Positions 2 to 56,955 of a stretch of DNA of 64,000 nt are shown piece after piece (the first letter of the stretch is position 1; each line of letters opens with the position of its first letter). Made by a program: the position numbers and the translations under genes. Source of the stretch: Hexactinellida sp. DTS-2022 (lineage: Eukaryota > Porifera > Hexactinellida). The stretch spans positions 13,320,501-13,384,500 of the forward strand of contig JAPNXP010000001.1 of the NCBI GenBank assembly GCA_028753945.1, in the 5' to 3' direction. The notes under the pieces are model-generated. The model saw only the letters and a program-made list of their open reading frames with translations. It made no database searches and was not told the DNA's origin.

Positions 2-922
2 CGAATTAAGTCTGACACTAAAGTTAGTATTCAGCTACATAGCTGTAATTTCAGTGCTGCGACAGCTGTTAATATCTTTCCTAAACCAACAAATCAGATT
101 ATAGACAGCTTGAAACTAAGTATGAATGAATATTCATATAAAGCACTTCAGGAATTAACCAATCTATTCTCTGCAATTCAATCCTTATGTGTTTATGAAT
201 ATGATAGTTATTACGACGTTATGGTACCAGCTCTGTGTAAGGCGACACAATTTAGAGTATTACACCTCTATGACATTCCTTCTGAACACACTCCTAGGCT
301 AACAGCTGTGCTACCTCGGTTCTCTAAGCTACAAGAGATTGGATTCAATAATACCTCACTGCTACCTGCAATTAGTCATTTGTCAAATCTAACTTATCTA
401 CGGATACAAGATAGTACAACTAAAGACACAACTCTCTGTGATTATTTGCTACAGATTATTAATGGGAACAGCCACTCGTTAAAAGGAATGGAATTGTATT
501 ATTTGCACAGGATTGGATTGAATAATTGGAGTTTGCTTCTCAATAGTTTGGAACTTTGCACTAATTTAGTTCAGCTAAAGCTACAGTTCATTACTCTACC
601 AACTAATGACGTCACTCACTGGAGTAGCGCTGTTAAACAAATGAAGTCAATAGTTGAATTGCAATTCATTAAAGTCTCCCTCTCTGACACAGGATTATTA
701 TCTCTCTGTGAAGGCCTGATATACCATCCTGCTATTAGGAGTCTAGAGCTAGGAGGCTGTAAGCTGACTTCTCTATCCTGTGAGCCTCTAGCTAACCTAA
801 TTCCAACTGTCTCACTGCTGGAGACACTGACAGTCAGGGGACTATCTGAACCTGACAGAGATCCTATCTCATTACTCAAGGAAACAGCTGATGAGTTTGG
901 TATTGAGCTTAAGTTGTGTTAA
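2..922 (+). CDS. NLR-A, C-terminal LRR part of a NACHT-LRR protein (partial at left edge)
   Basis: The frame is open from base 2 to the TAA at 920-922, giving 306 codons that align end to end with the last ~306 residues of the two whole NLR proteins in the window (about 80% identical by eye). It holds about ten leucine-rich repeats and the shared C-terminal stretch SEPDRDPISLLKETADEFGI. In NLRs the LRR part senses ligand or restrains the NACHT ATPase in the cytosol; that role is inferred from the family. The NACHT and N-terminal domains lie outside the window. Residues that differ from NLR-B and NLR-C sit mainly at exposed positions of the LRR beta strands. A splice donor (AAG|GTATGT) follows at 943/944, 21 nt after the stop. 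The first ATG in this frame, at 110, is internal and not a start. Confidence 0.93.
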   Translation, partial: RIKSDTKVSIQLHSCNFSAATAVNIFPKPTNQIIDSLKLSMNEYSYKALQELTNLFSAIQSLCVYEYDSYYDVMVPALCKATQFRVLHLYDIPSEHTPRLTAVLPRFSKLQEIGFNNTSLLPAISHLSNLTYLRIQDSTTKDTTLCDYLLQIINGNSHSLKGMELYYLHRIGLNNWSLLLNSLELCTNLVQLKLQFITLPTNDVTHWSSAVKQMKSIVELQFIKVSLSDTGLLSLCEGLIYHPAIRSLELGGCKLTSLSCEPLANLIPTVSLLETLTVRGLSEPDRDPISLLKETADEFGIELKLC

Positions 923-943
923 CTTCTCATCTCTGCTAATAAG

Positions 944-2430: not shown

Positions 2431-2570
2431 ACTACACCTCGTATTCCTCTCCTCTCCAGTCTCCCTCTCGTTCTCATCTGATTATTCGTATTTGGAACTA
2501 ACTTCAGTGTTTATTTGTGTATTCTCTTGTTTGTATTTATCATTAAACACTCTCTCAATTGAATTGTGTT
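2431..2570 (+). terminator. NLR-A terminal noncoding exon and poly(A) signal
   Basis: This exon begins after the conserved acceptor CTCCTCTAG and is pyrimidine-rich at first. It carries ATTAAA at 2542-2547 where the NLR-B and NLR-C copies have AATAAA. A TG-rich stretch follows, as expected near a cleavage site. The exact 3' end is a guess. Confidence 0.6.
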
Positions 2571-2667
2571 CGTCTTACTGAGTCTACTTTAATTAATGCA
2601 ATCCTTTACAAAACTAAACAATACATATACGTACATTAATCTGCTTAAAAACCAGTTTTCACTTATA

Positions 2668-2768: not shown

Positions 2769-2823
2769 TAATTAAAACTAATTCCTTATATAGTATCTGT
2801 TTTTTGGGACTTAGATACGAATA

Positions 2824-5620: not shown

Positions 5621-5622
5621 TG

Positions 5623-7141: not shown

Positions 7142-10100
7142 TCGCAAATATTTTTCCGTGTTGTTTTTGGTTCGGTCGGACCAAAGACAACGTGACAGAC
7201 CCAAGCTTGCTGGAAGGCCCTAAGCACGGTCTCCGTTTCCTGATCTTTGAGTGGTTGTAATTCTACATACCGAAACGACATTGACGACATTGTCCAAACG
7301 ACATTGACTGTATAGGTTCGCGACCGATAACTTTCCTTTTAACTTTCTGGCAAGAGATACCAACCGCGGCAAAACGCCTGGACTTCGTGTCTCATTTGTG
7401 GCCAAAAGTAGTTTCTCCTTAATGCTCTAAGTGTCTCGGCTTGGTCCAGGTGATGTTGCGTATATGCGTATAGGTGACGTAATCGCTTCCTGGGGAAGAT
7501 GCTTGAGGGTCATATGCGGCCTTCGAAAGTAGGTTCTCCTCGACGAATTGAAGTTTGTGAGAAACTCTTCTCAGCTGACCACTACATACTCGTCCCGCTC
7601 TAGAAATTCTGTACTGCTCCCTTGATAATCTCCACTTATGCGTGCATATAACCTCATTGGATCATTTGTAGAGAATATTCTATCTTCAAATTGTACTTCC
7701 TGGTTGACTGTTTCGTCATAACTCAGTCCTGGGTTCCGGCTTAAGTAATCTGCCACTTTATTCTCCCGCCCCGCCTGTGGGAGATCCTAAAGGGCAGCTC
7801 TTGCAGCTCCATTAGCCAGCGGACATACGCATGCTTCGGTCTCTCTGTCCTTTCAGCCATTGAAGTGGGCAATGATCAGTGATCAGTGATCAGAGTGATC
7901 CCGGTGCCCCTGTAGGTATACTGCCCGCTTACGTGTGGCCGCCACTAGCGCCCAGACTTCAGAGTTCTCGCCAGGATTTTTCGTTGAAAGGGTACATGAG
8001 AGTGATATATTCAATGATTTAATGAAACCTTCCAATTATAATATTGACTCAATTGGAACATGCCAACTAACTACTAAAGGGTACAATAGATTTCAACAAG
8101 GGCATGTAGCTTTTGATAGAGGCCTAGTGAGAACCCTATCAGGCTCCCAGCTGCCCAGTTGAGTAATTCTGTTGGCTGGAATTCAGGGAAGAGCAATAGA
8201 ATTGTATAGGCCTCAATTTACCAATGCTATTGTCTAGTTGAGATAGTACCGCTGCGACACCTGTCGAGCAGGCTTCTGCTTCGAGGTAAACTCGGCCCTC
8301 CAGTCTGGGTACAACAGGGAAACATGTTGCGCACTAGGCGAGTGCGCAGCTCGTTAAACGCCGTTCGAGACTCCGAATCCCAACACCAGTGTTTCCCTTT
8401 CTTCAGCAAACGATATAACGGTTCGGCAATTGTCGACATGTCCCTTATATAGCATCTATAGTAGTTAACAGCCCCGATGAAACCTTGTAACTCTGTTACT
8501 GAATTGTGTTCTGGAAAGGATTCTAGCCTATGGACGTAGTCCGTTACGGGACACCTCCCTTCGCTTGAGATCGAGTGTCCTAGGAACTCTAGAGAGGAGA
8601 AACCAAGTTGACATTTGTCTTGACGCAGCTGCAGTCCTGCCGTATTAGGTATTCAAATGTGGTTCGCAGGTCAAATGTGGTCCGTTAGGGTTGGAGATAA
8701 CACTAAGTTATCCTCCACGTGGCTCTCGCAGTTGGGTACCGTCTCCAGCGCCTTGTCTATGACTCTCTGAAAGGTCGCTTGTGCGCTGCAGAGGCCAAAT
8801 GGCATAACCAGCATCTCATACATACCCGAGGCGTATGAAAGGCGTATTTCGATGTCAGCCGGTCTGACGGGGATCGTCCAGTACGCTGACGCAATATCCA
8901 ACTTGGAAAAGTAGCGATTTGCTTTTAAACGGTCGAAGACTGAGACTGACTCATAGGCGTAGGCTCCGGTAGGGTTGGCGAGGCCATGGTCCTACCAATA
9001 AATTGTCAAGAGCCATCATTTTCTATTAAGTATGATGCAAGTTAGCATAGATGGCCCTACCAATCCTGAGTCTAGGCCCAATGGTCCTACCAATCCCCTA
9101 CCACGTTTAGCCGCCGGTAGTCGATTGCGAACCTTTGGATTCCATCCCTCTTCTTGACCAGTACCCCGTCAGAGGCCCAGGGTGACCGGCTTCGTCGGCA
9201 TATAGAGGGTTTGCACTGAGCATCTCTTCGAGCTGTCTCAATATCTCTGTTTCCCAATGTAGGGGAATCCGCCTAGGCCTTGATTTCTGAGGTGGTGCGT
9301 CTCCCGTTAGTATTGAGTGTAATTCCTTGATCCTGCATCTTGCGGGGCGTTTATGGTTTTGGCAAAAATGTGCCCGAATTGAGTAGATTCGCTTTTCGTC
9401 TAAATCGCATGGCTAGGATATTTGGACCTTGTTTTCCCCTGCCGTTGCTTCAAAGACTCCTCCTCCTTATCTTCCATGGCCCGGACTAAGGGTGTAGCGC
9501 AGCTAAGGGCCGTCTGGGCGGGGACCCAAAGTCTCCCTAACTTTACCCGGCCATTGTCCAAGTCGAATACCACCTGTACTACTTGTTTCATGAACCTTCT
9601 TCCTATAATAGTGTGGGTTGGTCGCTATCTAGTACTTTGATTCTTTCAATCACTGGGTCTAGCTCTCCTATTCTGGTAGTGGCTTCCACGTACCCAACGA
9701 CTTTACTGGATTATTTCACAACCATAGACTCTGAGGCGACCCGTACCATGGAGCTCTCCAAGTTAAGCTTCCGCGCTGTATTCAGGTTCATAGCACTTGG
9801 TGCTGCTCCGGTGTCGAGCATAGCGCACACTTGGTGTGAGCCGATCTGGACTTGCACGGTAACTGCCTCTCCTTCGGTGTGTGTCTGTTAGATGTCTTGC
9901 TTGTAGGATTGTTCGTAGCTCCGCTCTCCTCCCCTCTCGTGTCCTCCCTCCAGTTTCCTCTCTGTTTCGACCTCTGTTCTACTATCCTCTCCGGGGCAGG
10001 TAGCTAGTCTGTGACCTTCCTCACCGCAACTGGAGCAAAGTTTGTTGGGACAAACGCGATCAAAGTGTCCAGGGGAGGCGCATATAAAACACTTAGGTCG

Positions 10101-11115
10101 TTCCGTTTGGTGTTCCAGCCTCTTACCTGGGGGCGGACAAGCTGCATGTCGGTTGTAATTCGCTCTTTCGACTCCGAATAACCTTGCATCGGTTCCCCAG
10201 CCGTTATGGCCAGATTACTGGAGTCTCGTCTCGGAGGCAGGGGTTGCACTTGCAACGGACTGTACTCGACAGCCGCGGTGTCGGGCTATGCCCTTTCCGC
10301 AAACATCTCCCGAAGTGTGGTGCTGAACTGGAGTACCTCTTCTGCCGACATAGTGTCTTCTTTTCGCTTGACCCAATCCTTCAGCTTCTGCCGGACCTCT
10401 GGCGGGTCTGGGATACCATAGAGATACAAGCAGACTTCCGGTCAGCCCTGCTTTTGTTGCTTCTTCTAGGTAACGAGTGAAGAAGTCCTGCACTGGTTCT
10501 CCGGACCCCAGGCCATTTACGGAAATTTGCTGCTGCTTCGAAAGTATCTACTTCGGGGTCGAGCCTTTCTTTCAGGTAGGCGAATGCCTCCTCAAGGTTA
10601 TCTCTGCCCATTGCCCCTGGCTACTTTTCCTCGAGACGGCCTCTTTCCACATACGCGGGAAGGAGTAGGACTGCCACTTTCTGCTCCATGCCCGAAACGG
10701 CCGCTACGAATAGTGGTCGCCATGCTGCGATTGTTTGCCCCTCTCTGAGTGGGGGGATCGCAACGGCAAGGGTGTTGCCATCGCTGAATACGTTTAGTAA
10801 TTATGATAAGGGTAAGGCACGATGTAGAGCGATAATAGTTTGATAGTGGTTATTCAATACATAGGCGTAGCACGGGGTTCGGGTGGTCAGGACATGGCAG
10901 GACCAGTTTTCATTTGTTCTCCTATATTACATAGTAGGGAACAGTTTTGGAAGGACCACTTTAACTGTTTGGCCTGAGACCTTTCAGAGCCGTGCGACGC
11001 CTCTGCAGTGTATTGATAATTCTATTGCACTTTTGAACAACATTTCATTCTTTAATCTCGGACTGTACCATGTACAGTTAAACTCGGATTTCAGTTCCCA
11101 TAGGAACACATAGTA
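7142..11115 (-). mobile_element. Ty3/Gypsy LTR-retrotransposon fossil, unit A
   Basis: The parts, in minus-strand order, are a leader-like segment (about 11115-10800), gag (about 10800-10000, with a CCHC-like knuckle near its end), a protease-region segment, reverse transcriptase (motifs DIASAYWTIPV and FGLCSAQATFQ near 8700-8900), RNase H (near 8250-8440 and ADYLSR near 7750) and the start of the integrase core (YVELQPLKDQ near 7270). No LTR pair was recognised. It is broken, with many interruptions (of the order of ten), and looks old. A short stretch near 8960-9110 with repeated CCTACCAAT motifs looks inserted. Confidence 0.85.
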
Positions 11116-16143: not shown

Positions 16144-16999
16144 TTGGAGCTGAACATTTTCAAATACATGAAATTAACGCGAATAAATTTTAGAAAAAAA
16201 TTCAGGATTATTAATCTCCTTATTGAATACTATTTATTGTGCCCAAATAGGCTTCCAATCTACTTGATAGACATGGTATATACTTTCTCCCCCGAAAATC
16301 GTCAAAATGTGTGCTCCTATCCGAAATTCGTATTAACAGGTGTCATCTGAATTAAAGACTTTGAAGGGGACAAAAAGATCCTACGATCTTCCCTAATCAT
16401 ATAATCTGTGTCCGTATTAACGAAGTTATACTGTACATACACCTAACATTAGATCTATTGTCGCAATAAACGAACTATCTATTCATAAATATACATTTAT
16501 TATAACAAATGTGTTTTACAATAACTAGTATGTACGCTTAATTAACCAGGTACGTATGTAATAACCATATTCTACTGATATCAATCCGTATGCGATATTG
16601 AACACACCTTTGAGGTTTAATTCCCACTAATCATTCAATGAGAGTACTTTCAGTGCCTTGCTCCATGCTATACGGATTATAATTATAGCTGAATTATTAA
16701 TTATTCGTTGAGTTATCTCTAACTTATTGAATATTATTTGGAATATTCTTACTAATAACAAACTACAGTAGAACTCGGTTAATACGTACCACCTTGGGAG
16801 ACAATAAAAAGTACATGCTAACCGAGGTACGTCTTATCCGATTTGTTTGCATAATTCACAAGTCGAAATACTGACTTGTTCAATGATATGAATACAATAT
16901 ATGTTATACAAGTACATAACATATTTAACTATATGATTAAAGTATTTTAGTTGTCACATGCATGGATGTGAAGTTAGCAGCAAGTCCAGCAGCAAAAAG

Positions 17000-28244: not shown

Positions 28245-30045
28245 TATATCAATTTAGTATAAATATAATTAATGTGTTACGCAATAATTACTATGTAATC
28301 TAAATAAACCAGGTACATATGTACTAACCATATTCTACTGAAATTGGATTCGTATGCGACATTGAACACATGTTTGAGGTTTAATTCCCACTAATTATTC
28401 AATGAGAGTACTTTCAGTGCCTAACTCCATGCTATACTGATCATAATTATATCTGAATTATTCATTATTTGTGGAATTATCTCTAAGTTATGGAATATTA
28501 CAATATATTTGAGATATTCTCACTAAAATAACAAACTATAATAAGGAAACAACAGCAAACAGATCATTAGAATGAGTAATACTAGTGGCTTACTAAGCCA
28601 CCATCAATATTTGATTTTGTCGTGCACTGCTGCTGTTGAGGTTGGACAGTCTGAATATAGTGGGCCAAAATACTTTTAGCCGCTTAGTGTATTTACATTA
28701 GTAGATGCTTCAACTTGGATATTTTACATAAAAAGACGTTAAAGTGTAATAAAATAGCAAATCTTTTGAATCTTTTTATGAAGCTGTAAGCGAATATTGT
28801 GTCGGCATTAAAATCATATTGTTCAGATACTTTTGGCTGATTAGTGAAAGTAGAACATCGATAATAAATAAGGGGAGACTGGAGAAATATGTTGGCATTG
28901 TCGGAAATTTCTATTGGCCGTCATAATGTCATAGTAGTTATCATGCATTAATTTGTATATTGGCTAAGGGAATTAAAATTTGTACTTAACCGAAAAGTCG
29001 CCATCATGCCTTTTCTATTTCGGCGACTGATTTTGGAGGATTGTTTGTTTGTTGAAAGTTGTATTATATTTCAAAAAGTCATCCTATCAGCCATACTTGA
29101 TTGCTTTTAAGCAGTTGCAGTTCTTTTCATCTTATCTTTGGGATTTGGCACTCTACGTACCTCCCACGTCTAAGATCAGCTACTAGCTATAGTTAAATTC
29201 CCATGTACTATATACGTATCGAAAATATTCAAATTCAATATAGTGCATCTTAATATAGTGACACTTTATTATTGTGATTCACTTAATAAAGGGCCGTATA
29301 TGACAGTGAGAAAGCCAAAAACGTAGAAGGCCGAAATATAATATTGATTCGATTTTCAGCCAAACTTTCACTCAAATCAACAGCCAATAAAACTTTCTAG
29401 TGGCGACCATATACCGTATTCACTCGAACAATCGCCCTCCTCCTAAGCGATATAAAATTAAAACCCAAATTAAATGCTAAATAGACCTGCATTTAACTAG
29501 GTAACTTGGAAAATCCGGAATTTTTTTATCATACAACACCAGATGAGCACTAAGGGGATTTGTTTAACGGGATAATAGCGCTTAAAGTATTTCCTCAAAT
29601 AGCAAATAGCAATAAATACGATAACAAATTAATTTAAATCTATATATTTTGGACAAAGTGGGTCATCTTATGCACGAATATATGTCAATAAATCACAGAT
29701 ATACTTGTAATGTAGGCTATTGATTAAGTGTAAATGAATTTTTGATGTTGTGTAAAAATGAGACGAAATATATCAAAAATGGAATGGAAGCTTCTGGTAG
29801 AAAATATTAGATAAGATCCCAAACCCGATCCTAGTATGTAAGTGAATCTACACTCCGATCACAATCCTTAAAAAACGATCGCTATAAAAATGATAGATAG
29901 AAAACTCTTATGCCCCATGTATTATGACTTTATGAGTAAATATTAATTATCACATTGGTTATAGACCACCTTTTGAGTATGTATGTAGATAAGAATTATC
30001 CTAACTTTATTTTAACAAACGCTTTATTTGTGTAGAATTCCGGAT

Positions 30046-33000
30046 ATGGCAATCGAAGAGCTATCTGCCTTAACGGAACTAACCAACAAATTAACATCCG
30101 AAGAAATAATACGAATCAAGAATGAAATCGGTATCCCAGAAGGATTGTGTGAAGATATAACTCATAAATCGAATTTCCTAATCGCAATGAAACAATGGAA
30201 AGGTAGAGACGCCTACAAGTTCTATCTGGCTCTACAGCACATCCGACCCGACTTGTCAGCAATAGCTTGTGAAGTGAAGTGGCTATGCGACTCATCCCCA
30301 GGAGAAACCGAATTCCAAGAGGAGGAACTGTCAATCAAAACTCTAATCAATCTACTGAGAGATGAAATCCCTATGGATAAATGGACGTTAATATACATAA
30401 CTCTGATAAATGAACCAATTGAGAATATCAGTTTTGAAATGGCCATGAACAAACTGTTGGAAAACGGATTTATTCAGAAAGACCTGAAAGAACTAACAAG
30501 GATCCTGGTGGGAATCCAAAGAAATGACGTGGTTGTACAATTGAAGGTCTACATTACTTTATTCTCGAAAATGCAGGAAGGGGAGTTTGAAAGCAAATTC
30601 AAAAAGGAAATCGACAAACAAGCAAAAGAACTGGAACAATGGGAAATGAAACTAAGAGCGTTTGCAAAATTACAATTCGAGAATATTAAACAAATGATTG
30701 GAAAGGATAAATTGGTGAGCCTGGAAAGCGTATTTGTTGATTTGACAATTTTAAAAGAGGAACCCAGAGAAATAAACATGGAGGATGAAACGACCTATAA
30801 TGAAATTGCATACCTCAGAAAAATTGCAAATAAGGAGGTAGAAATAACGCCTGTCGATTTTACAGAAGAATTATTAGCGTTTGATGCTGCAAAGCCTGAA
30901 ATTTGGTGCATAATCGGGAATCCGGGATGCGGTAAGACATTCTTGTCAAAGAGAACTGCTCTCAGATTCAGTCACAAAGAATTAGTCGGAATTCGATACT
31001 CAATCTCGATTCCCTGTCGCGACACTAACTGGCACTCAATAGAGTCGACACGATATGATGATGCAGCAGAAATTGAGTCAGAATTCATCACAAAATGGCT
31101 TTGTTTAGGCTTGCCAAATGGCGCCAATTGGTCAAGGGACCTAGCTAAACACCTGGCAGGGTCAGATGGTGATGGCCTCACATTGATAATAGACGGGCTG
31201 GATGAATTTACCAAAAAGATACCTTTCGGATGCACATTCTTATGTTCGTTATTAACACGAAAATCGCTAACAAAATCAACGATAATTCTAACAACGCGAC
31301 CTGGGGCTTGGACCGTCATATCCTCTACAAACGAACTGATCATAGACCGCTATTATCAGGTGCTGGGCTTCTCGCCAGAAAACAGGGACCTATATTTCCA
31401 AAAACAGATTACAAGCGAACGCAAACTGAGGGAATGCTTTAACCTAATGGAGCGACATGACGAAATGAAACAGCTCTCTCTAATCCCTGTAAACGCATCG
31501 TTGTTCGCGGCACTATTGAAAGGAGAGGATTCTACCTCCATTAATACGCTAACAAAGCTCTACTACGAATTAGTACTGTATATGATAAGGAGAGAACTAC
31601 TAAGAATGGGCCTAAAGGAGTACTCTCGAGTCTCACGCATTTCAAACCTCCACACAGACATACTAGCCTGCCTGCATAGAATAGGATTCATAGCAATCCT
31701 CGGAGTGGCAAACAGAGATCTGGTATCGGAAGAGACAGTAACTCTCAATTTGGGACAGGAAGAATACCCATGCCAGTGCTTAGGTCTAGCTCACGAGCAC
31801 TACCGAAAGGAATCCGTCGGACTTATGAAACAAGTGTGGACATTTGTCCACCTGACTATGCAGGAGTTCGTATCTGCCCTCTATTTGGAACACACTAGCT
31901 GGATTAAGCAGTGCTACAGTGTTAGGTATATTTCCCACTCCGAGGCCAACTTATCTCTATTCCGAATGGTAGTCAGGTTCCTCTGTGGACTCCTGTCTGA
32001 TAAAGCAGCCGCTCTTCTTTCCATCCTATACAGGTACCTGACTCCTCAGCCCATTCAGATAATCGATATGCCGATGAGCTATCAACTTAGGTACACTGGT
32101 TTGTATCACCATGAAGGTTGGAATCTATTTACCAAAATATATTTCCAATTAGCCTCAATTTTATTCGAGACTAACTCAGATTCAATTCCTTTTTGGTTCA
32201 ATAACTTCAAACAACATTTTCCGATGCCAGTGTACCTGTATGTACTAGAATCCGTCTCTCCAAATGAATGGATTTGTTTTATTCAGACTCTCAAACTCGT
32301 TTGTCGAATTCAACTCATTTATATCGACACTACTCATATCAATCCGACTCAATTCCACTCTTTGATCCAGGAAATGGGAATCTGTTCCATTAATTTATTA
32401 GCATTGCGCTTCTATCAGAAAGATTCCACTACAGTCCTATCGTATACCGAAACAATTAGAGAGATAGGAATTAAGTCTGACACTAAAATTAGTATTGAGC
32501 TATCCGTCTGTAATTTCAGTGCTGAGACAGATGTTATTCTCTTTCCTACGCCAACCAATCAGATTACCGACAGCTTGAGACTAGCTGTGAATAAATATTC
32601 ACATAAAGCTCTTCAGGAATTAACCAATCTATTCTCTGCTATTCAATGCTTATTTGTTAGGGAATCTGAAACTAATTACGTCACTATGGTACCAGCTCTG
32701 TGTCAGGTGACACAATTAAGAGTATTACACCTCTATAAGATTCCTTCTAAAAACATTCCTAGCTTAACAGCTGTGCTACCTCAATTCTCTAAGCTACAAG
32801 AGATTGCATTCACTAATGCCTCACTGCTACCTGCAATTACTCATCTGTCAAATCTAACTTATCTACAGATACGAGATTATACACCACAAGACACAACTCT
32901 CTGTGATTATTTGTTACAGATTATTAATGGGAACAGACGCTCATTAAGAGGAATGGAATTGTGGAATTTGCACGATATTGGATTGAATAATTGGAGTTTG

Positions 33001-33387
33001 CTTCTCAATTGTTTGCAACTTTGCACTAATTTAGTTCAGCTAAAGCTATGGCGAATTAATCTACCATCTAATGACGTCACTCACTGGAGTAGCGCTGTTA
33101 AACAAATGAAGTCTTTAGTTGAGTTGGAATTACAGTGGGTCTCCCTCTCTGACACAGGATTATTATCTCTCTGTGAAGGCCTGATATACCATCCTGCTAT
33201 TAGAAGTCTAGAGCTAGGAGGCTGTAAGCTGAGTTCTCTATCCTGTGAGCCTCTAGCTAACCTAATACCAACTGTCTCACAGCTGGAGACACTGAGAGTC
33301 GATGGACTATCTGAACCTGACAGAGATCCTATCTCATTACTCAAGGAAACAGCTGATGAGTTTGGTATTGAGCTTCAGCTGCGGTAA
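30046..33387 (+). CDS. NLR-B: DED-like/DED-like/NACHT/LRR protein, 1113 aa
   Basis: This is a whole coding exon with no interruption. I place the start at ATG 30046 (MAIEELSALTEL) because a splice acceptor (TTTGTGTAG) ends at 30035 and NLR-C starts at the equal place; the in-frame ATG at 30028 lies in the intron. Residues 1-82 and 96-175 look like death-fold domains; the second resembles a DED. Residues 175-230 are helical and charged. NACHT follows, with Walker A GNPGCGKT (291-298), Walker B LIIDGLDEF (D383, D386, E387), and a sensor-1 TTRPGAW near 416. The NLR linker shows FVHLTMQEF near 600. About ten LRRs run from 843 to the end. By family, a cytosolic ATP-dependent immune sensor that oligomerises and recruits death-fold partners. 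Promoters with a kB-like site suggest induction by NF-kB (inference). Confidence 0.95.
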   Translation: MAIEELSALTELTNKLTSEEIIRIKNEIGIPEGLCEDITHKSNFLIAMKQWKGRDAYKFYLALQHIRPDLSAIACEVKWLCDSSPGETEFQEEELSIKTLINLLRDEIPMDKWTLIYITLINEPIENISFEMAMNKLLENGFIQKDLKELTRILVGIQRNDVVVQLKVYITLFSKMQEGEFESKFKKEIDKQAKELEQWEMKLRAFAKLQFENIKQMIGKDKLVSLESVFVDLTILKEEPREINMEDETTYNEIAYLRKIANKEVEITPVDFTEELLAFDAAKPEIWCIIGNPGCGKTFLSKRTALRFSHKELVGIRYSISIPCRDTNWHSIESTRYDDAAEIESEFITKWLCLGLPNGANWSRDLAKHLAGSDGDGLTLIIDGLDEFTKKIPFGCTFLCSLLTRKSLTKSTIILTTRPGAWTVISSTNELIIDRYYQVLGFSPENRDLYFQKQITSERKLRECFNLMERHDEMKQLSLIPVNASLFAALLKGEDSTSINTLTKLYYELVLYMIRRELLRMGLKEYSRVSRISNLHTDILACLHRIGFIAILGVANRDLVSEETVTLNLGQEEYPCQCLGLAHEHYRKESVGLMKQVWTFVHLTMQEFVSALYLEHTSWIKQCYSVRYISHSEANLSLFRMVVRFLCGLLSDKAAALLSILYRYLTPQPIQIIDMPMSYQLRYTGLYHHEGWNLFTKIYFQLASILFETNSDSIPFWFNNFKQHFPMPVYLYVLESVSPNEWICFIQTLKLVCRIQLIYIDTTHINPTQFHSLIQEMGICSINLLALRFYQKDSTTVLSYTETIREIGIKSDTKISIELSVCNFSAETDVILFPTPTNQITDSLRLAVNKYSHKALQELTNLFSAIQCLFVRESETNYVTMVPALCQVTQLRVLHLYKIPSKNIPSLTAVLPQFSKLQEIAFTNASLLPAITHLSNLTYLQIRDYTPQDTTLCDYLLQIINGNRRSLRGMELWNLHDIGLNNWSLLLNCLQLCTNLVQLKLWRINLPSNDVTHWSSAVKQMKSLVELELQWVSLSDTGLLSLCEGLIYHPAIRSLELGGCKLSSLSCEPLANLIPTVSQLETLRVDGLSEPDRDPISLLKETADEFGIELQLR

Positions 33388-44718: not shown

Positions 44719-45540
44719 TGTTTACCTATTTGTGTAAACAACAACAACAACAAATACTCATATTATAATTTTATAAATGCGAAATTCGTGTTCGCCATCC
44801 TTGTTTACCTATAATACCCGTTGAAAGCGAACTTCTGGTTTGATTTTGAATTTTCATTAATTTGTTTACCTTTTTGTGTAAACAACAACAACAAATATTC
44901 ACATTATAAATTTATAAACGCGAAATTCGAAATAAGCATACTTGTTTACCAATAATACCCGTTGAAAGCTAACTTTTGGTTTGATTAGAATTTCACTAAT
45001 TTGTTTACCTTTTTGTGTAAACAACAACAACAAATATTCATATTAGAAATTTATAAACGCGAAATTCGAAATCAGCATACTTGTTTACCTATTATACCCG
45101 TTGAAAGCAAACTTCTAGGTTGATTTTGAATTTTCAGTAATTTGTTTACCTTTTTGTGTAAACAACAACAACAAATATTCATATTATAAATTTATAAACG
45201 CGAAATTCGAAATCAGCATACTTGTTTACCTATAATACCCGTTGAAAGCTAACTTCTGGTTTGATTTTGAATTTTCACTAATTTGTTTACCTTTTTGTGT
45301 AAACAACAACAAATATTCATATTATAAATTTATAAACGCGAAATTCGAAATCAGCATACTTGTTTACCTATAATACCCGTTGGAAGCTAACTTCTAGGTT
45401 AATTTTGAATTTCATTAATTTGTTTACCTATTTTGTGTAAACAACAACAACAAATATTCATATTATAAATTTATAAATGCGAAATTCGTGTTCAGCATAC
45501 TTGTTTACCTATTATATCATTTGTTTACCAATTTTTACAT
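44719..45540 (+). repeat. ~140-bp satellite array 1
   Basis: About six copies of a unit containing GTGTAAACAACAACAACAAA, GCGAAATTCG, CATACTTGTTTACCTATAAT and CCCGTTGAAAGC. Confidence 0.88.
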
Positions 45541-45799
45541 TTGACAGTTAGTTTATATCTCATATATTAATGCGGTTTCTATTCCCCCATCACTTTAATA
45601 CAATCCGGACAAACAAACACACAAACACACACACACACACACACAACAATCGAGATTTAATAATATAGACGAGCCCTTCGGTCTCGGTCGCTTTGCGACG
45701 GATCGGTGCTACGCACCTCAAGTTAACGGCCGCTATGCGGCCTTACTCCTCACCCTTTCTACCATGGAAAAGGGAGTTATATACATCCATTTAGAAAAT

Positions 45800-47195
45800 T
45801 TCCATAGTTTTAACTTTTTTTTCATATTATAAATTTATAAATGCGAATTTCGTGGTAAGCACACTTGTTTACCTATTATACCTGTTGAAAGCTAACTTCT
45901 AGGTTGATTTTTATTTTTAATCAATTTGTTTACCTATTTTTGTAAACAACAACAACAAATATTAATATGAGAAATTTATAAACGCATAATTCGTGTTCGG
46001 CATACTTGTTTACCTATAATACCCGTTGGAAGCTAACTTCTAGGTTGATTTTGAATTTTAATTAATTTGTTTACCAATTTTGTGTAAACAACAACAACAA
46101 ATATTAATATGAGAAATTTATAAACGCGAAATTCGTGTTCGGCATACTTGTTTACCTATAATACCCGTTGGAAGCTAACTTCTAGGTTGATTTTGAATTT
46201 TAATTAATTTGTTTACCTATTTTTGTAAACAACAACAACAAATATTAATATGAGAAATTTATAAACGCATAATTCGTGTTCGGCATACTTGTTTACCTAT
46301 AATACCCGTTGGAAGCTAACTTCTAGGTTGATTTTGAATTTTAATTAATTTGTTTACCAATTTTGTGTAAACAACAACAACAAATATTAATATGAGAAAT
46401 TTATAAACGCGAAATTCGTGTTCGGCATACTTGTTTACCTATAATACCCGTTGGAAGCTAACTTCTAGGTTGATTTTGAATTTTAATTAATTTGTTTACC
46501 TATTTTTGTAAACAACAACAACAAATATTAATATGAGAATTTATAAACGCGAAATTCGTGTTCGGCATACTTGTTTACCTATAATCAGGGGCGTGCTGGC
46601 CATACAATCGATGCGAGATTCCCGCTCGGGCCCCCCTTTGGGAGCCGTCTTAGGGACCCCCTTGTGGGACCGCAGGCCCCCACTGCGATTACTTTCTGAA
46701 TGGAATCCCGCATGGGCCCCCCAACCCCAGCACGCCCCTGCCTATAATACCCGTTGGAAGCTAACTTCTAGGTTGATTTTGAATTTTAATTAATTTGTTT
46801 ACCTATTTTGTGTAAACAACAACAACAAATATTAATATGAGAAATTTATAAACGCGAAATTCGTGTTCGGCATACTTGTTTACCTATAATACCCGTTGGA
46901 AGCTAACTTCTAGGTTGATTTTGAATTTTAATTAATTTGTTTACCTATTTTGTGTAAACAACAACAACAAATATTCATATTATAAATTTATAAATGCGAA
47001 ATTCGTGTTCAGCATACTTGCTTACCTATAATATCCGTTGAAAGCAAACTTCTAGGTTGATTTTGAAATTTTCATTAATTTGTTTCTTATTTGTGTCAAC
47101 AACAACAATAAATAATCATACCGGTATTACAAATTTGTAAATGCGAAATTCGTGTTCAGCATACTTGTTTACCTATTATAATAACATTTGGAACT
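45800..47195 (+). repeat. ~140-bp satellite array 2
   Basis: About nine or ten copies of the same unit. Neighbouring copies around 45990-46560 alternate between two near-identical versions (GCATAATTCG and GCGAAATTCG), which points to growth by a ~280-bp dimer. Confidence 0.85.
46586..46740. mobile_element. 155-bp hAT-like MITE inside the satellite
   Basis: Perfect 14-bp TIRs CAGGGGCGTGCTGG and CCAGCACGCCCCTG are flanked by the 8-bp duplication CCTATAAT (46578-46585 and 46741-46748). It is GC-rich and looks young. Confidence 0.93.
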
Positions 47196-49619
47196 TAGTC
47201 TCTATCTCAATTATAAATGCGGTTTCTAGTCCCCCATCACTTTAATACAATCCGGACAAACAAACACACAAACACACACACACACACACAACAATCGAGA
47301 TTTAATAATATAGATTTATCATAATATCTGTTGTTAGGAAACTTATCCTTAATTGAAGAATATCAAAAGGAATTTCTTATAATCAAAGATACTTTCATTA
47401 TCAACGAATTACAGTGAGTTGTCTTACTTACATTTTATAGGATTTGAACATGTATTATATCAGAAAATATGGACATTTAATTTTAATTGATTAATTACAA
47501 TTGCTTATTCCCTCCTTTATAATGATACTATTCATTATCATATCACTGTATTTACTTATATTTATCTGTGTTCATAGATCCTATTGCAATTATCAATAAC
47601 GCTAATATCATCAATCAGTTGAATCAGCTAACAAAGTAAGTAAATTTCTTTGTATTATCTATATATTCACTATAATTGTACCGATATACATTTGCATCAA
47701 TCTTAGTAGGGAAATCTTTATCATCATGCCCTGCATTATTTGCTGTACAATCTAAAATCTGCTAATTTAATTATTTCTGAAAATATTATTTCTTTTTGGA
47801 GTGTTTAAAGTTAATACATACTCCGGTGCTATTACACAATACGTATACTTATAAGATTTGTCATTGAGCCATCAACTTTAACAAGAATGAATAATTTGGC
47901 TGTTTAACTCTGATATTGCACAGTTAATTAGTGGAGAAATAAATCCTTTAACCGAATTACTTGTTTATGGAAATACATACATGCAAATCTATCCAATTTG
48001 GTTTGAAAAATGGGTATGTACACTAATCCGGCTAAAAGTATTTGAAGAACAATAATTATATGAATATATTCCAGCTTCTCGAGGCATAATTACATTTGTT
48101 GATGCTTCAATATAAAACGATAAGTAATTTGAATTTATATTTTATAGGGGTATTAAGCTCATAAACTTTATAATGAGCTAATAAATACAGATTTTCTGAT
48201 CATTATGAGGCAATTATAATTTACTAATTCTGATTTCACATTATAATTGCACATAGTAGGATTACTCTAGGTACTTAATTTCAAATAATTGCGTATCGGG
48301 TGATCGATCAGGTTAAGATAATCAGATAAATATACATAGTTTAGTGTAATATTCTGAATATACTATAGGAATTCAAATTTCATATTTGTGAATAGATATG
48401 TATGATATTCACAATACATTGGGAATTTAGGCTCAATAATCGAAACGATATCGCAAATAGTAGCTCTTATTTGAAAATCTCGCTCTTTTTAAGTTAACAA
48501 GCTCAAAATTCCAACACAAGTATCAATTTACTAGGACTGTATCGAAAGAATAAAGTAACAATATCAAATTATCAATCGAGATGAGCAAGTATGAATATAC
48601 TATATTAAATGTATTATCAATTTATTTTGGACCTATTTACTAGGCATACGATTGATTCCAATAATTTCCTGAATTTAATGACCCTTCGGCAAAAGTTAAA
48701 CTCACGGGTCTACGTGGCCCAGTTACTTAGCATGTTCCAAATCTAACTTTTCTAATAGATATACTATACACCGAGTTCTGATATTATTCTGTAGTACATT
48801 TTGGAGCTATGGTATATTGCAATATACATTTCTAAACTGGCTGCCATTAATATACTCGTATAACTATTAGTTCTGATTATGAGCATATCTATACATCCTC
48901 TACTGAAATAAATTTGATGAAATATATTGTTAGTATAACACCGCTCCTTTCTATGTCTTAATTACGTCGCGTTTTAGCCCCGTTTCCCAAAGTACTAAAG
49001 CTATACAATGAACAGAAGTGTAAATAGGAGATTATTCGAAAATATACAATTGTGTCTCTGCTCTTAGGGCTCTACTAGACGGGTCACTTAGCTATATAGG
49101 GAGATAAAATAATCAATTTTTGGTTCAATTGGGATGATACTCAGCCTGTAGTTAAAGTGAATTCAGCATTAGAGCTAAATAATAGCAAGGATGTCCAAAG
49201 GTATTAAAGAATAACTAAAAACTTACCATAATTTCGTGCGAGATATTAATATTATTAACATTAATTGTTTTAATCTAGTAATTAACCAAGAAAATCCATA
49301 TATTAATAGCCCAATTTTGTCTAATTCTATGTATAAATAATATATTTAATGCGAAACTCAATATTGTGTATGGAATTTACATATTTTCTGTGTTATTGTG
49401 GGATTGGGCTGTATCAACTATAAAAATGAAGAAAACATAACTAATTTCGACGAGATTGATCCATTAATTCATGAGAAATTAATTGTGAAGTGGTGCTCAT
49501 TTTCGCTACTGGATTTCGCTACTAACTTCACACTCGTATTCTTATTTCCCAGCACTCCAGTTTATTAAATTAAGATAATAAAGTCTCATACACTATAGCA
49601 AGTATAATTAAATGTATTA

Positions 49620-52537: not shown

Positions 52538-53561
52538 CACTCACGACCAAAAGTATTTGAACATCAACATTATGGATTAATATATTCAAGCTTCTAGCAA
52601 CATAATAACATCAGTAGATGCTTAAAATGGATGTTGACATAAAAATGATATGTTGACATAAAATGATATGTTAAGTATAATAAAATGGCAAAATATTTGA
52701 ATTTAAATTTTTATGGAGGTGTTAAACTCATTAACTATATAATTAGCTAATTAAAAAGATAATTTCTGATCATTATGAGGCAATTAGAATACAGTAGAAC
52801 CTCCCCAATCAGGGCAGCTTCGTCCGGAGGGTGCCCGGATCTTAGAATTTGCCCGGATCTCAGAAATAATCATAATTTCTATTGTTAATCAACTAGTGTT
52901 TATGTTCTGATGTCTCAATACCTATTGTCTGACCTGATACGCACCTCTGACATCTAATCTTGGTATAAGTTTATCCAAAGAGTTCATAAATTTCGAATAT
53001 GAATCGTATATAAAGTAGCGAGATTACCATATGGCCAAATCCAAACCAATATTTACCGCCCAGATAAGGGTAGTTATACTTTAGTAACATGTTTGACATG
53101 CAAATCTGAAAAGATAAACTATATTTTGGGGCTAATTCCCAGAAAAATGGCGAATTAATTTTGAACTTATACAAAAATGTTGCCCGTTTTAAGGAGGTGC
53201 CCGGTTCTGAGAGGTCCGGATCTGGGAGGTTCTACTGTATACAAATTCAGATTGAAGATTTGATTACTACATAGTATAATAACTCTAGGTTCACAATTTC
53301 TACCATTGATATACCACTGAAATACAGCCACATTCCCATTTGTGCCACTTGTGCCACAAGTGGAAAGTGACAGAAACACATATGCCACTTCATAAATAAT
53401 GCAAATAATTGACTTAAAGTAACAATGTTATGAAGTTTAGAACCATAATAATAAATTAAACTACATTTTAGAGTAGTTTAAACAGCCGTCAACAAACTAT
53501 TTAAAGCATATTGTGTCTGGAATATAATTCCTGTTGTTCAAATACTTTTGGCCGGTGAGTG
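52538..53561. mobile_element. Tc1/mariner-type element ending 36 bp before the NLR-C coding exon
   Basis: The left end CACTCACGACCAAAAGTATT and the right end AATACTTTTGGCCGGTGAGTG are inverted; TA follows the right end. No transposase is seen. It carries a nested MITE at 52792-53237. Confidence 0.75.
52792..53237. mobile_element. 446-bp pogo-like MITE, nested
   Basis: The ends CAGTAGAACCTCCC and GGGAGGTTCTACTG are perfect inverses flanked by TA. GCCCGGATCT motifs occur in both orientations. A fragment of the same family lies inverted at about 15312-15405. Confidence 0.88.
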
Positions 53562-53613
53562 TATTTATCCAATATATAATACTGTATATCCCTCTAGGCT
53601 CTACCATTGTCGA

Positions 53614-56600
53614 ATGGATATTTCTGAATTAACTGCGTTGACAGAGTTATCGAATGAGTTAACAATTGATGACGTGAAGCAAATACGAAATGAAATTGGA
53701 ATACCAGAAGCTTTGTGTGAAGATTTGTCGCAAGTTACGAAGTTTCTTTTTGCAATCAGAAGATGGACGGGACACAAACCGTTCCTTTTTTATATGGCCC
53801 TAAAGCGTGTGAGGCCTGAATTAACGGAAAAAGCATGTAAAGTTAGATGGCTTTGCAATTCCTCGCCCGACGGGACTGAGTTCCAACAAGAAGAAAATTT
53901 ATCCATTAAAACACTGGTACAACTTTTGAAATCAGAGATAACTAATGTGCAATGGCTACTCATCTACATGACTGTAACATCTGAAGCAAAGGAAAATGTC
54001 AGTTTTGCAGATACACTGAGCCTGCTAATGGCGAAAGGTCTGGTTAAGAAAGACCTGAGTGCACTTTGTGAAATCATTAAAGGAATCCAGAGGGACGATG
54101 TTGTGAGAAAACTTGTGGCTTATAAGAATCTATTCAACCAAATGGATGATGGCGAATTTGAAAACAAATTTAAGCGAGAATTGACAAGTCAGGTCAAAGA
54201 AATGAAACAGTGGGATGCGAATTTGAAAGATTTCTTACAAATCCAACACAGCACAGTTCAACAAATGTTGGGAGATGTCGTATCGGTTAATCTAGCAGAG
54301 GTGTTCATCGACTTAACAATCCTAAAAGAGAAACCTCGACCCATTAATTTCCAAGATGAAACAACCTACAACGAGATTGCATATCTCAGAAAGATAGCAA
54401 ATAAAGAAGTTGAAATACAGCCAGTTGATTTTACTCAAGAATTGACGACATATGAATCTAAAAAGCCGGAAATTTGGTGCATCATAGGCAACCCCGGCAG
54501 TGGCAAAACATTCCTAGCCAAGCGAACAGCCCTCAGATTTAGTAGCAACGAACTAACTGGGATTCAATACTCTATCTCAATTCCCTGCCGCAATGAAGAA
54601 TGGCATTCTATGGAGGTAGCAAGAATTCAGGAGGATAAGAAAGTCGACTCGGTATTTATACAAAAATGGATCTGTCTGGGATTGCCGGTTGGACCCAGTT
54701 GGACAAACGATTTAGCGAAGCACTTGAATGAATCGAGTGGAGATGGAGTCCTGTTCATTATTGACGGACTAGATGAGTTTACCAGGAAAGTGCCATTCGA
54801 GAAAACATTGCTATGTTTGCTGCTGACCCGTCAAGCCATGATAAAAGCAACCATAATTCTAACGAGTCGCCCCGGGGCATGGACTGACATCTCCTCTGCA
54901 CACGAATTGAAAGTGAACAGGTACTACCAGGTGCTTGGGTTCTCGCCAGCCAACAGAGACCTTTACTTCGAGAAACAAATACGCAACGAAAAGAAATTGG
55001 CAGAATGCAAGAGTTTGCTAAAGCGACACGACGAAATGGATCAGCTCTCGTTAATCCCAGTAAATGCGTCCCTTTTCGCAGCTCTGCTGAAAGGAGAAGA
55101 CTCCACTCTCATTAATACTCTGACAAACCTCTACTACGAATTAACGCTTTACCTGATAAGGAGAGAACTGGCCCGAACGGGACTACCAGAATTCACACGG
55201 GTGGAACGTATATCCGATCTCCATGCCGACATACTTGAATGCCTAAGTAAAGTAGGATTCATCGCAATGCTCGGGGTAGCGAACAGAGAACTAACATCGG
55301 AGGAAAACGTGCCTCTAACAATCGGACAAGAGGTATATCCCAGTCAGTGCTTAGGTCTAGCTCACGAGCACTACAGAACTAACTCTGTCGGGTTGATAAC
55401 CAAAGTGTGGACATTTGTGCATCTGACCATGCAGGAGTTCGTATCTGCTCACTGGGTTAGCAACACTTCCTGGACAAAGCAGTGCTTCAGCATCAGGTAC
55501 ATATCCCACTCAGTTGATAACTTCTCGCTTTTCAAAATGGTGACCAGATTCCTGTGCGGGCTCGTGACAGAAAAAGCAGCGGTTTTGCTAGTCATTATGT
55601 ACAGGCACCTAACCCCGCAACCAATCCCAATGATTGGAATGCCTATTACTTTCCAGCTAAGATATAGAGATATATATGGCATGAGTGTGTGGCGCGAATT
55701 TACTAAAATATTTTTCGAATTAATCGCAATTGTATATGAAACAAATTCTAATTCATTAGCTTTCTGGTTTAATAACCTCAAACAGTATTTCCCTACTCAC
55801 ATATACCTCTATGTGCAACAAGCCGTCTCTCCCAATGAATGGTTTTGTTTCTGTCAGTCTCTCAAACTTGTTAGTAGAATTCAACTCATTTTCATCGACA
55901 CTAGTCGCATCAAGCCAACTCAGTTCAAATATTTGATAGAGAAAATGGGAATCTGTTCCGTTAATTTATTAGCTTTGCGCTTCTATAAGAAAGATTCCAC
56001 TACAGTCCTATCATATACCGAAACAATTAGAGAGACAGGTATTAAGTCTGACACTAAAGTTAGTATTGAGCTATCCAACTGTGATCTCAGTGCTGAGACA
56101 GATGTTAATCTCTTTCCTACACCAACCAATCAGATTATACACAGCTTGAGACTAACTTTGAATGAATATTCACATAAAGCTCTTCAGGAATTAACCAATC
56201 TATTCTCTGCTATTCAATGCTTATTTGTTTGGGAATATGATACTAATTACGTCACTATGGTACCAGCTCTGTGTCAGGCGACACAACTAAGAGTATTACA
56301 CCTCGAAAACATTCCTTCTAAACTCATTCCTAGCCTAACAGCTGTGCTACCTCAGTTCTCTAAGCTACAAGAGATTGCATTTGAGAATACCTCACTGCTA
56401 CCTGCAATTACTCATCTGTCAAATATAACTTATCTACAGATACAAGATACAACTAAAGACACAACTCTCTGTGAATATTTGTTGCAGATTATTAATGGGA
56501 ACAGACACACATTAAGAGGAATGGATTTGTATAATTTGGACAGTATTGGATTGAATAATTGGAGTTTACTTCTCAATCGTTTTGAACTTTGCACTAATTT

Positions 56601-56955
56601 AGTTCATCTAAAGCTATGGGACATTACTCTACCAACTAATGATGTCACTCAGTGGAGTAGCGCTATTAAACAAATGAAGTCTTTAGTTGAATTGGAATTC
56701 TATACTGTCTCCCTCTATGACACAGGATTATTATCTCTCTGTGAAGGCCTGATATACCATCCTGCTATTAGGAGTATAGAGCTAACAGACTGCAAGCTGA
56801 CCTATCTATCCTGTGAGCCTCTAGCTAACCTAATTCCAACTGTCTCACAGCTGGAGACACTGAGTGTTAATGAACTATCTGAACCTGACAGAGATCCTAT
56901 CTCATTACTCAAGGAAACAGCTGATGAGTTTGGTATTGAGCTTAACCTGGATTAA
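53614..56955 (+). CDS. NLR-C: DED-like/DED-like/NACHT/LRR protein, 1113 aa
   Basis: This is a whole coding exon without interruption. The start is ATG 53614 (MDISELTALTEL), 16 nt after the acceptor CCCTCTAG; codons upstream in the same frame belong to the intron and to a transposon end. It has the same domain order and the same length as NLR-B: death-fold 1 (1-82), DED-like 2 (about 96-176), NACHT with Walker A GNPGSGKT (292-299), Walker B FIIDGLDEF (D384, D387, E388) and sensor-1 TSRPGAW, NLR linker FVHLTMQEF, then LRRs to the end. Against NLR-B the first ~780 residues are clearly diverged, with many silent changes, while the last third is nearly identical outside beta-strand positions. A cytosolic immune sensor by family. 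A donor AAG|GTATGT lies 21 nt after the stop. Confidence 0.95.
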   Translation: MDISELTALTELSNELTIDDVKQIRNEIGIPEALCEDLSQVTKFLFAIRRWTGHKPFLFYMALKRVRPELTEKACKVRWLCNSSPDGTEFQQEENLSIKTLVQLLKSEITNVQWLLIYMTVTSEAKENVSFADTLSLLMAKGLVKKDLSALCEIIKGIQRDDVVRKLVAYKNLFNQMDDGEFENKFKRELTSQVKEMKQWDANLKDFLQIQHSTVQQMLGDVVSVNLAEVFIDLTILKEKPRPINFQDETTYNEIAYLRKIANKEVEIQPVDFTQELTTYESKKPEIWCIIGNPGSGKTFLAKRTALRFSSNELTGIQYSISIPCRNEEWHSMEVARIQEDKKVDSVFIQKWICLGLPVGPSWTNDLAKHLNESSGDGVLFIIDGLDEFTRKVPFEKTLLCLLLTRQAMIKATIILTSRPGAWTDISSAHELKVNRYYQVLGFSPANRDLYFEKQIRNEKKLAECKSLLKRHDEMDQLSLIPVNASLFAALLKGEDSTLINTLTNLYYELTLYLIRRELARTGLPEFTRVERISDLHADILECLSKVGFIAMLGVANRELTSEENVPLTIGQEVYPSQCLGLAHEHYRTNSVGLITKVWTFVHLTMQEFVSAHWVSNTSWTKQCFSIRYISHSVDNFSLFKMVTRFLCGLVTEKAAVLLVIMYRHLTPQPIPMIGMPITFQLRYRDIYGMSVWREFTKIFFELIAIVYETNSNSLAFWFNNLKQYFPTHIYLYVQQAVSPNEWFCFCQSLKLVSRIQLIFIDTSRIKPTQFKYLIEKMGICSVNLLALRFYKKDSTTVLSYTETIRETGIKSDTKVSIELSNCDLSAETDVNLFPTPTNQIIHSLRLTLNEYSHKALQELTNLFSAIQCLFVWEYDTNYVTMVPALCQATQLRVLHLENIPSKLIPSLTAVLPQFSKLQEIAFENTSLLPAITHLSNITYLQIQDTTKDTTLCEYLLQIINGNRHTLRGMDLYNLDSIGLNNWSLLLNRFELCTNLVHLKLWDITLPTNDVTQWSSAIKQMKSLVELEFYTVSLYDTGLLSLCEGLIYHPAIRSIELTDCKLTYLSCEPLANLIPTVSQLETLSVNELSEPDRDPISLLKETADEFGIELNLD

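Follow-up and report, generated by a model that had tools for sequence, protein, structure and literature searches.

Three tandem NACHT-LRR genes with open frames, NLR-A, NLR-B and NLR-C, lie in the 64-kb stretch of DNA analyzed here (the window), and their LRRs raise the question of what drives residues beside conserved leucines to vary within a shared scaffold. All three belong to one family, for which the 112-Mb genome contains at least 94 NACHT matches. The Pfam NACHT matches of NLR-B (E 7.9e-15, 55.5 bits) and NLR-C (E 5.5e-17, 62.5 bits) exceed the curated cut-off of 26.7, and NB-ARC (PF00931) has 0 matches across the genome. Pfam LRR models score below cut-off in the window genes, including LRR_14 and LRR_R13L1 in NLR-A, though 12 L-x-L-x-x repeats are present. 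The NLRC4_HD2 match of NLR-B (E 2.1e-4) is also below its cut-off. The N-terminal region has no convincing Pfam match in NLR-B and a weak, below-cut-off DED-like match (E 0.011) in NLR-C, with none such in NLR-B. NLR-A starts upstream of the window, and its full copy, L006, measures 1113 aa counted from the chosen Met. With NACHT above cut-off and a C-terminal LRR solenoid, the family is of the animal NLR type.

Table 1. Coordinates of the NLR genes, LRR parts and x codons in the window
Feature	Position	Strand	Description
NLR-A C-terminal LRR part	2..922	+	Open frame; contained in L006 frame
NLR-B	30016..33387	+	Single open frame; N-terminal region, NACHT, HD2-like, LRR
NLR-B LRR part, 12 repeats	32431..33384	+	Codons 796-1113 from Met
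NLR-B x codon starts, part 1	32497, 32503, 32506, 32578, 32584, 32587, 32653, 32659, 32662, 32728, 32734, 32737	+	
NLR-B x codon starts, part 2	32806, 32812, 32815, 32872, 32878, 32881, 32956, 32962, 32965, 33043, 33049, 33052	+	
NLR-B x codon starts, part 3	33127, 33133, 33136, 33211, 33217, 33220, 33295, 33301, 33304, 33376, 33382	+	
NLR-C	53482..56955	+	Single open frame; architecture as NLR-B
NLR-C LRR part	56002..56952	+	Start estimated from LRR length

The LRR frame consists of 12 repeats of L-x-L-x-x, with x at offsets +1, +3 and +4. Every variable motif quoted in an earlier sequence-only reading is found in the NLR-A, NLR-B and NLR-C translations. Its claim that L is kept while x changes holds: 83 of 303 LRR columns vary among the three genes, comprising 28/34 x, 2/24 L and 53/245 other columns (Fisher odds ratio 18, p = 1.4e-12), and three different residues occur in 13 x columns versus 3 among all other columns. 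Variation is thus concentrated at x, but that reading overstates how far the genes agree elsewhere, given the 53 other variable columns. Pairwise, 20-26 of 34 x codons and 33-41 of 269 non-x codons are changed, with 12-13 silent codon changes.

Group A, one of the paralogue groups, is represented by 41 loci, 32 of which form the full-length set (9 are truncated or contain stops). The LRR set holds 38 rows, namely these 32, L026, L030, L034, L035 and L081, and the LRR frame of L005; L014, L015, L036 and L041 are left out. Removing the divergent L033 and L037-L040 and the near-identical L002, L020 and L021 leaves a 30-row core, from which L018, L022-L024, L030-L032 and L035 are omitted in a 22-row close set. 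Beyond group A, LRR parts of 40 further NLR matches were retrieved, and the B and C group tests exclude L043, L047, L061, L064 and L066.

Per-codon selection in group A was estimated from 30 LRRs over 318 codons (35 x, 24 L and 259 others), using home-made FUBAR-like code with kappa fixed at 2 and one FastTree tree; since a single tree is used for an LRR with almost no linkage, the rates are approximate. P(dN>dS) exceeds 0.95 at 42 of the 318 codons, distributed as 29/35 x, 0/24 L and 13/259 others (Fisher p 2.8e-25), so the predicted excess of dN over dS is present at 29 of the 35 x positions. Median omega reaches 13.6, 15.1 and 13.9 at offsets +1, +3 and +4; other offsets from -4 to +8 give 0.3-1.3, but +6 gives 3.1. 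The upstream part contains 0 selected codons out of 790, with 602 under purifying selection. In simulations of the null, with 35 codons set to alpha = beta = 2.5, false positives number 0, 1 and 0 at those codons and 0/283 elsewhere, and a star tree retains the 29 x sites while the total rises to 75, including 3 at L. Change at the x residues outruns that at silent sites about tenfold, on a scaffold that is nearly constant.

Such a contrast could arise if x were merely unconstrained surface set against a scaffold under purifying selection. The x residues of LRR folds are solvent exposed, and omega is about 1, not far below it, at non-x LRR codons and pooled L positions, pointing to an LRR that is loosely constrained overall. 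In the pooled x codons, however, amino-acid change exceeds silent change roughly tenfold (alpha 0.5, beta 5, omega 10), with a lnL gain of 89 over omega<=1. Residue usage in the 23 hypervariable columns also departs from random, with R, Y, D, E and W above and I and L below their random-codon shares and proline absent, making an unconstrained surface highly improbable. Thirty-eight LRR columns have an entropy of at least 1.7 bits.

The sequence-only reading also described x codons as often changing by two or three bases, and 69 changed x codons over the three gene pairs indeed divide into 35, 23 and 11 changed by one, two and three bases. Under a single-step model with site-specific rates the expectation is about 56/36/8%, so that three-base changes are somewhat commoner than modeled (11/69 versus 8%). 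Five young pairs yield 116 changed x codons (52/52/12), or 45/45/10% against a predicted 56-58/35-36/7-8%, and the young pair L063/L064 has one x change of three bases. The first impression of a clear multi-base excess is mostly explained by rate heterogeneity, leaving a modest excess. Slip-copying from a neighboring codon is not in excess (1.65% observed, 2.31% shuffled).

These multi-base changes would suit a mutational process, either directed hypermutation or a hotspot, that hits x codons and makes selection unnecessary. Silent variation speaks against it: pairs sharing a residue use different codons in 12.1% of cases at the 23 hypervariable columns and 12.3% at the 231 framework columns, and the fitted silent rate in group A is 0.44 at x versus 0.62 elsewhere. 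Third-base ts/tv is about 0.21-0.22 at hypervariable codons, 1.04 in the framework and 0.99 upstream; this predominance of transversions at x matches simulated selection, not a simulated hotspot. The simulated hotspot gives 51% codon difference in same-residue pairs and a ts/tv of 0.65, against 11% and 0.22 observed, although these tests are blind to a transversion-only, codon-position-aware process. Simulated selection fits the data far better, if imperfectly: codon positions 1 and 2 differ at 0.45 and 0.48 observed versus 0.57 and 0.58 simulated, and the simulated same-residue silent difference (13-23%) is higher than the 11% observed. Among near-identical copies (0-14 codon differences), x accounts for 1 of 22 codon differences, and the DGR-like signature, a rise in all change at target codons, silent change included, is absent. 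The process aiming changes at these codons that the earlier reading offered as an alternative is therefore not supported, and we consider it extremely improbable; diversifying selection at the exposed x of xxLxLxx, its first proposal, is upheld by both the dN/dS and the silent-site results. A low ts/tv (0.29) also occurs in 64 columns of intermediate variability, so the third-base signature is not limited to the most variable columns.

In the predicted LRR structure, strands and helices alternate (mean pLDDT 69, moderate confidence), and 12 of 12 x groups lie on predicted strands or <=4 residues after them. A structure search of the PDB matches NLRC4 best, with ribonuclease inhibitor at rank 23. 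The proposed placement of the variation on a putative concave binding face agrees with these predicted β strands, within a model of moderate confidence.

Three other paralogue groups repeat the x-position pattern, and a fourth does so weakly. At the 0.95 threshold, x accounts for 24/35 selected sites in group B1 (1 at L), 14/23 in C1 and 18/27 in C2 (2 at L). In B2 (6 genes), 3 of 4 selected sites fall at x, and the third-base signature is missing (ts/tv 1.5 at x versus 1.01). Of six young pairs listed, five were used, the sixth sharing both its genes with others. Within these pairs, 20-25 of the 35 x residues are different, against 29-37 of 780 upstream residues, and silent changes occur in 11-16 of 318 LRR codons and 41-69 of 780 upstream codons, so that the LRR silent rate ranges from roughly half the upstream rate up to equality with it. 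With the shortfall against distant upstream halves being several-fold, synonymous constraint looks unlikely to be what chiefly keeps LRR silent divergence low.

That divergence steps down near codon 802: silent codon differences between genes amount to 32-50% in the first 475 codons and 4-10% in the LRR, several times lower than in the distant upstream halves. NLR-C, L020 and L021 have an LRR in common, L020 and L021 each differing from NLR-C by 2 bases (0-2 across the three), downstream of sequence that is 3% divergent, and together with the low silent divergence this makes the LRR behave like an exchanged specificity block. Homogenization is incomplete, because LRR silent change is below upstream in young pairs, by up to about half, and climbs to 0.20-0.26 where upstream dS exceeds 1. 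The 3' flank (mean distance 0.31) is unfit as a clean neutral yardstick, since similarity fades about 40-60 bases past the stop. The PHI test yields p 0.07 when every LRR site is included and 0.12 when x is excluded, and singletons are in excess among silent biallelic LRR sites (20/30). The pattern may reflect star-like descent with parallel change or intense short-tract conversion.

Short tracts also feature in a further explanation, in which balancing selection keeps old alleles of the x codons, very short conversion tracts shuffle them among genes, and the intervening silent sites coalesce recently. Many x columns have a few common codons that recur in otherwise unlike LRRs, and r2 between common LRR variants is at the unlinked level past a few bases, as such reshuffling would give. 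Old alleles should nonetheless show silent variation, whereas same-residue x codons in group A differ silently in 11-12% of pairs and several columns have a single third base throughout; x residues within one repeat also lack mutual information (22 sequences, low power). We regard this explanation as unlikely.

The evidence instead favors a large germline family of animal-type NLRs, with NACHT and C-terminal LRR, that has very probably undergone recurrent diversifying selection on solvent-exposed LRR β-strand residues. Gene conversion or unequal crossing-over would transfer LRR blocks from one family member to another, re-spreading a common scaffold, after which each copy would diverge at its face. 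A range of ligands, whether microbial, symbiont or self/non-self, may bind the putative face; NACHT oligomerization would follow, with signaling through the N-terminal domain, which is perhaps a death fold. A bolder version, which we advance tentatively, treats the LRR block as a specificity cassette copied among scores of NLR genes with different signaling halves, its scaffold homogenized by conversion starting sharply about codon 802 and its face then rapidly diverging in each copy. Lamprey variable lymphocyte receptors (VLRs) likewise have hypervariable residues on the concave strands of an LRR solenoid, and are assembled somatically from cassettes, whereas the copies studied here belong to the germline and for the most part have complete frames.

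Among the closest parallels in the literature covered are the plant hvNLRs (Arabidopsis RPP1, RPP13), whose periodic high-entropy residues on LxxLxLxx strands overlap positively selected sites (PMC8226289). Periodic strand variability at selected sites, exposed bulky aromatics and locally clustered paralogues are common to both, and at least 10 positions above 1.5 bits, periodic over the LRR, are found here as in the hvNLR definition, among paralogues of one assembly rather than alleles of one species (PMC8226289). The NB-ARC domain of that definition is lacking: plant hvNLRs pair NB-ARC with TIR/CC, whereas NACHT and a homogenized LRR block occur here (PMC8226289). The internally highly conserved fungal HNWD NLRs of Podospora (het-d/het-e) similarly pair a homogenized scaffold with a small number of hypervariable surface codons subject to diversifying selection, but their WD40 repeats are homogenized within a gene, and the LRRs here from gene to gene at matching repeats (PMC12222747). 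Zebrafish NLR-B30.2 genes number in the hundreds, with gene conversion differing by domain; there it is the B30.2 recognition domain that shows positive selection, the LRRs being "not particularly variable", whereas here the LRR carries the signal (PMC4852459).

Large NACHT-LRR expansions are shared with the sponges Amphimedon (135 genes; PMC7308585) and Dysidea avara (126 genes; PMC12909245), and the excerpts available from these two papers contain no per-codon selection test or LRR-block exchange. Nor was an LRR site test found in those of a sea-anemone paper (PMC5094078) or a coral genome paper, which calls gene conversion rare in corals (PMC10236652). Among the matches listed, chiefly titles and abstracts, we found no report of x-position selection in an animal NLR repertoire. 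One review already treats polymorphic LRRs as hinting at specificity among invertebrate NLRs, crediting Degnan 2015 on a sponge, and whether large invertebrate families directly recognize specific ligands is judged there from expansion, general LRR polymorphism and expression (PMC7308585). Here, selected residues are named per codon on a common scaffold across tens of paralogues, and therefore define a predicted, testable binding face, in a NACHT receptor that parallels the plant hvNLRs and contrasts with the zebrafish B30.2 case. If the LRR block does serve as a specificity cassette, an animal without adaptive immunity would have, in its germline, a large standing collection of LRR paratopes, a design comparable to lamprey VLRs and made by evolution, not in the soma.

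The window spans positions 13,320,501–13,384,500 on the 17.6-Mb contig C1 of a 112-Mb genome in 18 contigs and carries three tandem NACHT-LRR genes in diverged units spaced ~32 and ~24 kb apart. The frames measure ~1,113 residues, counted from the chosen Met, with NACHT above the Pfam cut-off, C-terminal LRRs, and matches below the cut-off to an NLRC4-type HD2 and, in NLR-C, to DED. At least 94 NACHT domains score above the cut-off in the genome (94 of 149 candidates scored), and a genome-wide profile search gave no NB-ARC match. A genome-wide LRR query returned 126 matches, fragments counted, many at ~12.5–14 Mb of C1 and the rest elsewhere on C1 and on C2–C5, C10–C13, C15, C16, and C18. In 18 genes of group A, the paralogue set including the window genes, the first ~40 nt past the stop codon are conserved, and most copies hold an AAG|GTWTGTAT-like site, which may be a splice donor for an intron in the 3′ UTR.

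Features of the window and of other loci in the genome (G000)
Feature	Position	Strand	Observation
NLR-A	window 2-922	+	3′ gene part
NLR-B	window 30016-33387	+	complete frame
NLR-C (L019)	window 53482-56955	+	complete frame
Retroelement remnants	window 8674-10214	-	between NLR-A and NLR-B; RVT_1 fragment (E 2.2e-8), CCHC zinc knuckles
Large inverted repeat	window 16961-18192 / 21065-22111		arms up to 713 nt, 95%; holds ~190-nt tandem units
Tandem array	window 44740-47203		~141-nt units; neighbour similarity alternates
Cathepsin-L-like fragment (L092)	G000:C1:17465759-17465995		catalytic Cys replaced by Ser; reminiscent of sponge silicatein
Inverted LRR copies	G000:C11:3346805-3348062 / 3361238-3362495	+ / -	match scores equal; one stop each

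LRR variation is concentrated at the x codons, positions +1, +3, and +4 of an L-x-L-x-x frame. The motifs from which the sequence-only reading proposed hypervariable x positions are all found in the window genes, and its pattern holds among the three: 28 of 34 x columns vary, versus 2 of 24 frame leucine (L) columns and 53 of 245 others (p = 1.4e-12). The wider family sharpens the pattern, with variable columns in register with 12 repeats spaced 22–29 residues apart. Entropy at +1, +3, and +4 averages 2.2, 2.9, and 2.1 bits, compared with 0.34–0.69 at −4 to −1, 0.36–0.47 at 0, +2, and +5, 1.2 at +6, and ~0.7 at +7 and +8. LRR groups B and C, judged by eye, show peaks at matching places in their alignments. 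R, Y, D, S, E, F, K, N, and W are common at the 23 hypervariable columns, and proline is absent from the residues found there.

In LRR folds generally, the x side chains of xxLxLxx face the concave side. An AlphaFold2 model of the NLR-B C-terminus (484 residues, with the three window sequences as input; model residue equals codon number minus 629) predicts a strand/helix solenoid with a mean pLDDT of 69, in which all 12 x groups lie on a predicted strand or ≤4 residues after it. A PDB search with this model ranked NLRC4 first (E 1.2e-11) and ribonuclease inhibitor 23rd (E 4.1e-8).

The x codons are under selection. A custom codon model of the FUBAR kind (MG94-type with kappa 2, on a grid of alpha, the silent rate, and beta, the amino-acid rate) was applied to 30 LRRs of group A, after 8 of the 38 rows had been excluded as too divergent or near-identical. 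P(beta>alpha) exceeded 0.95 at 42 of 318 LRR codons, comprising 29 of 35 x, 0 of 24 L, and 13 others, 7 of them at frame +5 to +7. For the x codons pooled, omega is 10, and it is ~1 both at L and in the remaining LRR; upstream, across 24 genes, 0 of 790 codons are selected and purifying selection acts on 602. At the same threshold, the other paralogue groups yielded 35 selected codons in B1 (11 genes; x 24, L 1), 23 in C1 (10 genes; x 14, L 0), 27 in C2 (7 genes; x 18, L 2), and 4 in B2 (6 genes; x 3, L 0). In null simulations, 35 codons were given neutrally raised change (alpha = beta = 2.5); these codons yielded 0, 1, and 0 false calls, and the other 283 yielded none. A star tree selected 75 codons, including 29 x and 3 L, so the specificity of the site test is tree-dependent. 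A tree-free comparison used five young pairs with close upstream halves (41–69 of 780 codons silently different upstream; 11–16 of 318 in the LRR): 20–25 of 35 x residues differ, versus 29–37 of 780 upstream residues. A sixth pair, L003/L004, whose genes are already used in other pairs, gave 22 of 35 and 33 of 780. Per-codon silent change in the young pairs is somewhat reduced in the LRR relative to the upstream part, at most by about half.

The sequence-only reading had also allowed for a process aiming mutation at x codons, which should raise silent change in the same codons. No such rise is seen: of pairs sharing a residue, 12.1% use different codons at hypervariable columns, compared with 12.3% at framework ones, and the model fits a silent rate of 0.44 to x codons and 0.62 elsewhere. 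Third-base transition/transversion ratios are 0.21 at hypervariable, 0.29 at intermediate, and 1.04 at framework columns, and 0.99 upstream; third-base change at variable codons is thus mostly change that alters the residue. Simulated selection (alpha 0.5, beta 5) gave a ratio of 0.36 (0.25–0.52; 0.21–0.40 with kappa 1.5) and 18% (13–23%) same-residue codon difference, and a simulated hotspot striking x codons without selection gave 0.65 (0.58–0.77) and 51% (48–54%). The observed 0.22 and 11% are at or just under the selection range and far from the hotspot. Observed differences at codon positions 1 and 2 (0.45, 0.48) fall below simulated selection (0.57, 0.58), and the third-base signature is missing in B2. 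Near-identical copies (L001/L002, L019/L020/L021, L042/L043/L047, and L063/L064), where an aimed process would be expected to become visible first, hold 22 codon differences, 1 at x, although numbers are small. Taken together, the silent change, the simulations, and these copies speak against aimed mutation. The near-identical LRRs of L063 (C16) and L064 (C4) have a three-base codon change as their sole x difference; the L064 version also occurs in L062, and the L063 version equals the next codon.

Silent divergence of the LRR block is low. Across 18 genes in 25-codon bins, the fraction of same-residue pairs that use different codons runs at 0.32–0.50 over codons 1–475, 0.11–0.26 over 501–800, and 0.04–0.10 from there to the stop, with a step at ~codon 802. 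Among 276 gene pairs compared at non-hypervariable LRR codons, mean LRR silent divergence stays at 0.086–0.092 for upstream dS class means of 0.17, 0.46, and 0.86 (99 pairs); it reaches 0.20 at upstream dS >1 (135 pairs) and 0.26 at saturation (41 pairs), so the most distant genes are less homogenised. The LRRs of L019 (NLR-C), L020, and L021 are 0–2 bases apart with upstream parts 2.9–3.6% different. Other pairs also carry unlike upstream modules; L004 and L008 match at every one of the first 360 bases, later diverge to as many as 30 differences in 60 bases, and then are close again. Block transfer by gene conversion or by unequal exchange would explain this simply. Group-A LRR pair distances are either 0–0.002 or ≥0.083, with no intermediates. 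Within the LRR block, common variants are unlinked (r2 ~0.05 versus 0.42–0.55 upstream at <30 bases) and silent variants show a singleton excess (20 of 30), a combination that fits short-tract conversion and equally fits star-like descent with parallel change.

The NLR type suggests an animal host, and the silicatein-like L092 fragment would fit a demosponge. Sponge NLR expansions are already known (PMC12909245). Plant hvNLRs share this LRR variability pattern, there between alleles (PMC8226289); zebrafish NLR-B30.2 genes likewise combine conversion and selection, but on B30.2 and not on the LRRs, described as 'not particularly variable' (PMC4852459); and fungal HNWD receptors resemble the present family in a homogenised repeat scaffold with a handful of selected codons (PMC12222747). 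LRR polymorphism is cited as a hint of specificity in a review (PMC7308585). By analogy with animal NLR biology, the variable LRR face may recognise ligands directly, perhaps microbial, symbiont or self ones, upon which NACHT would oligomerise and signal through a putative death fold.
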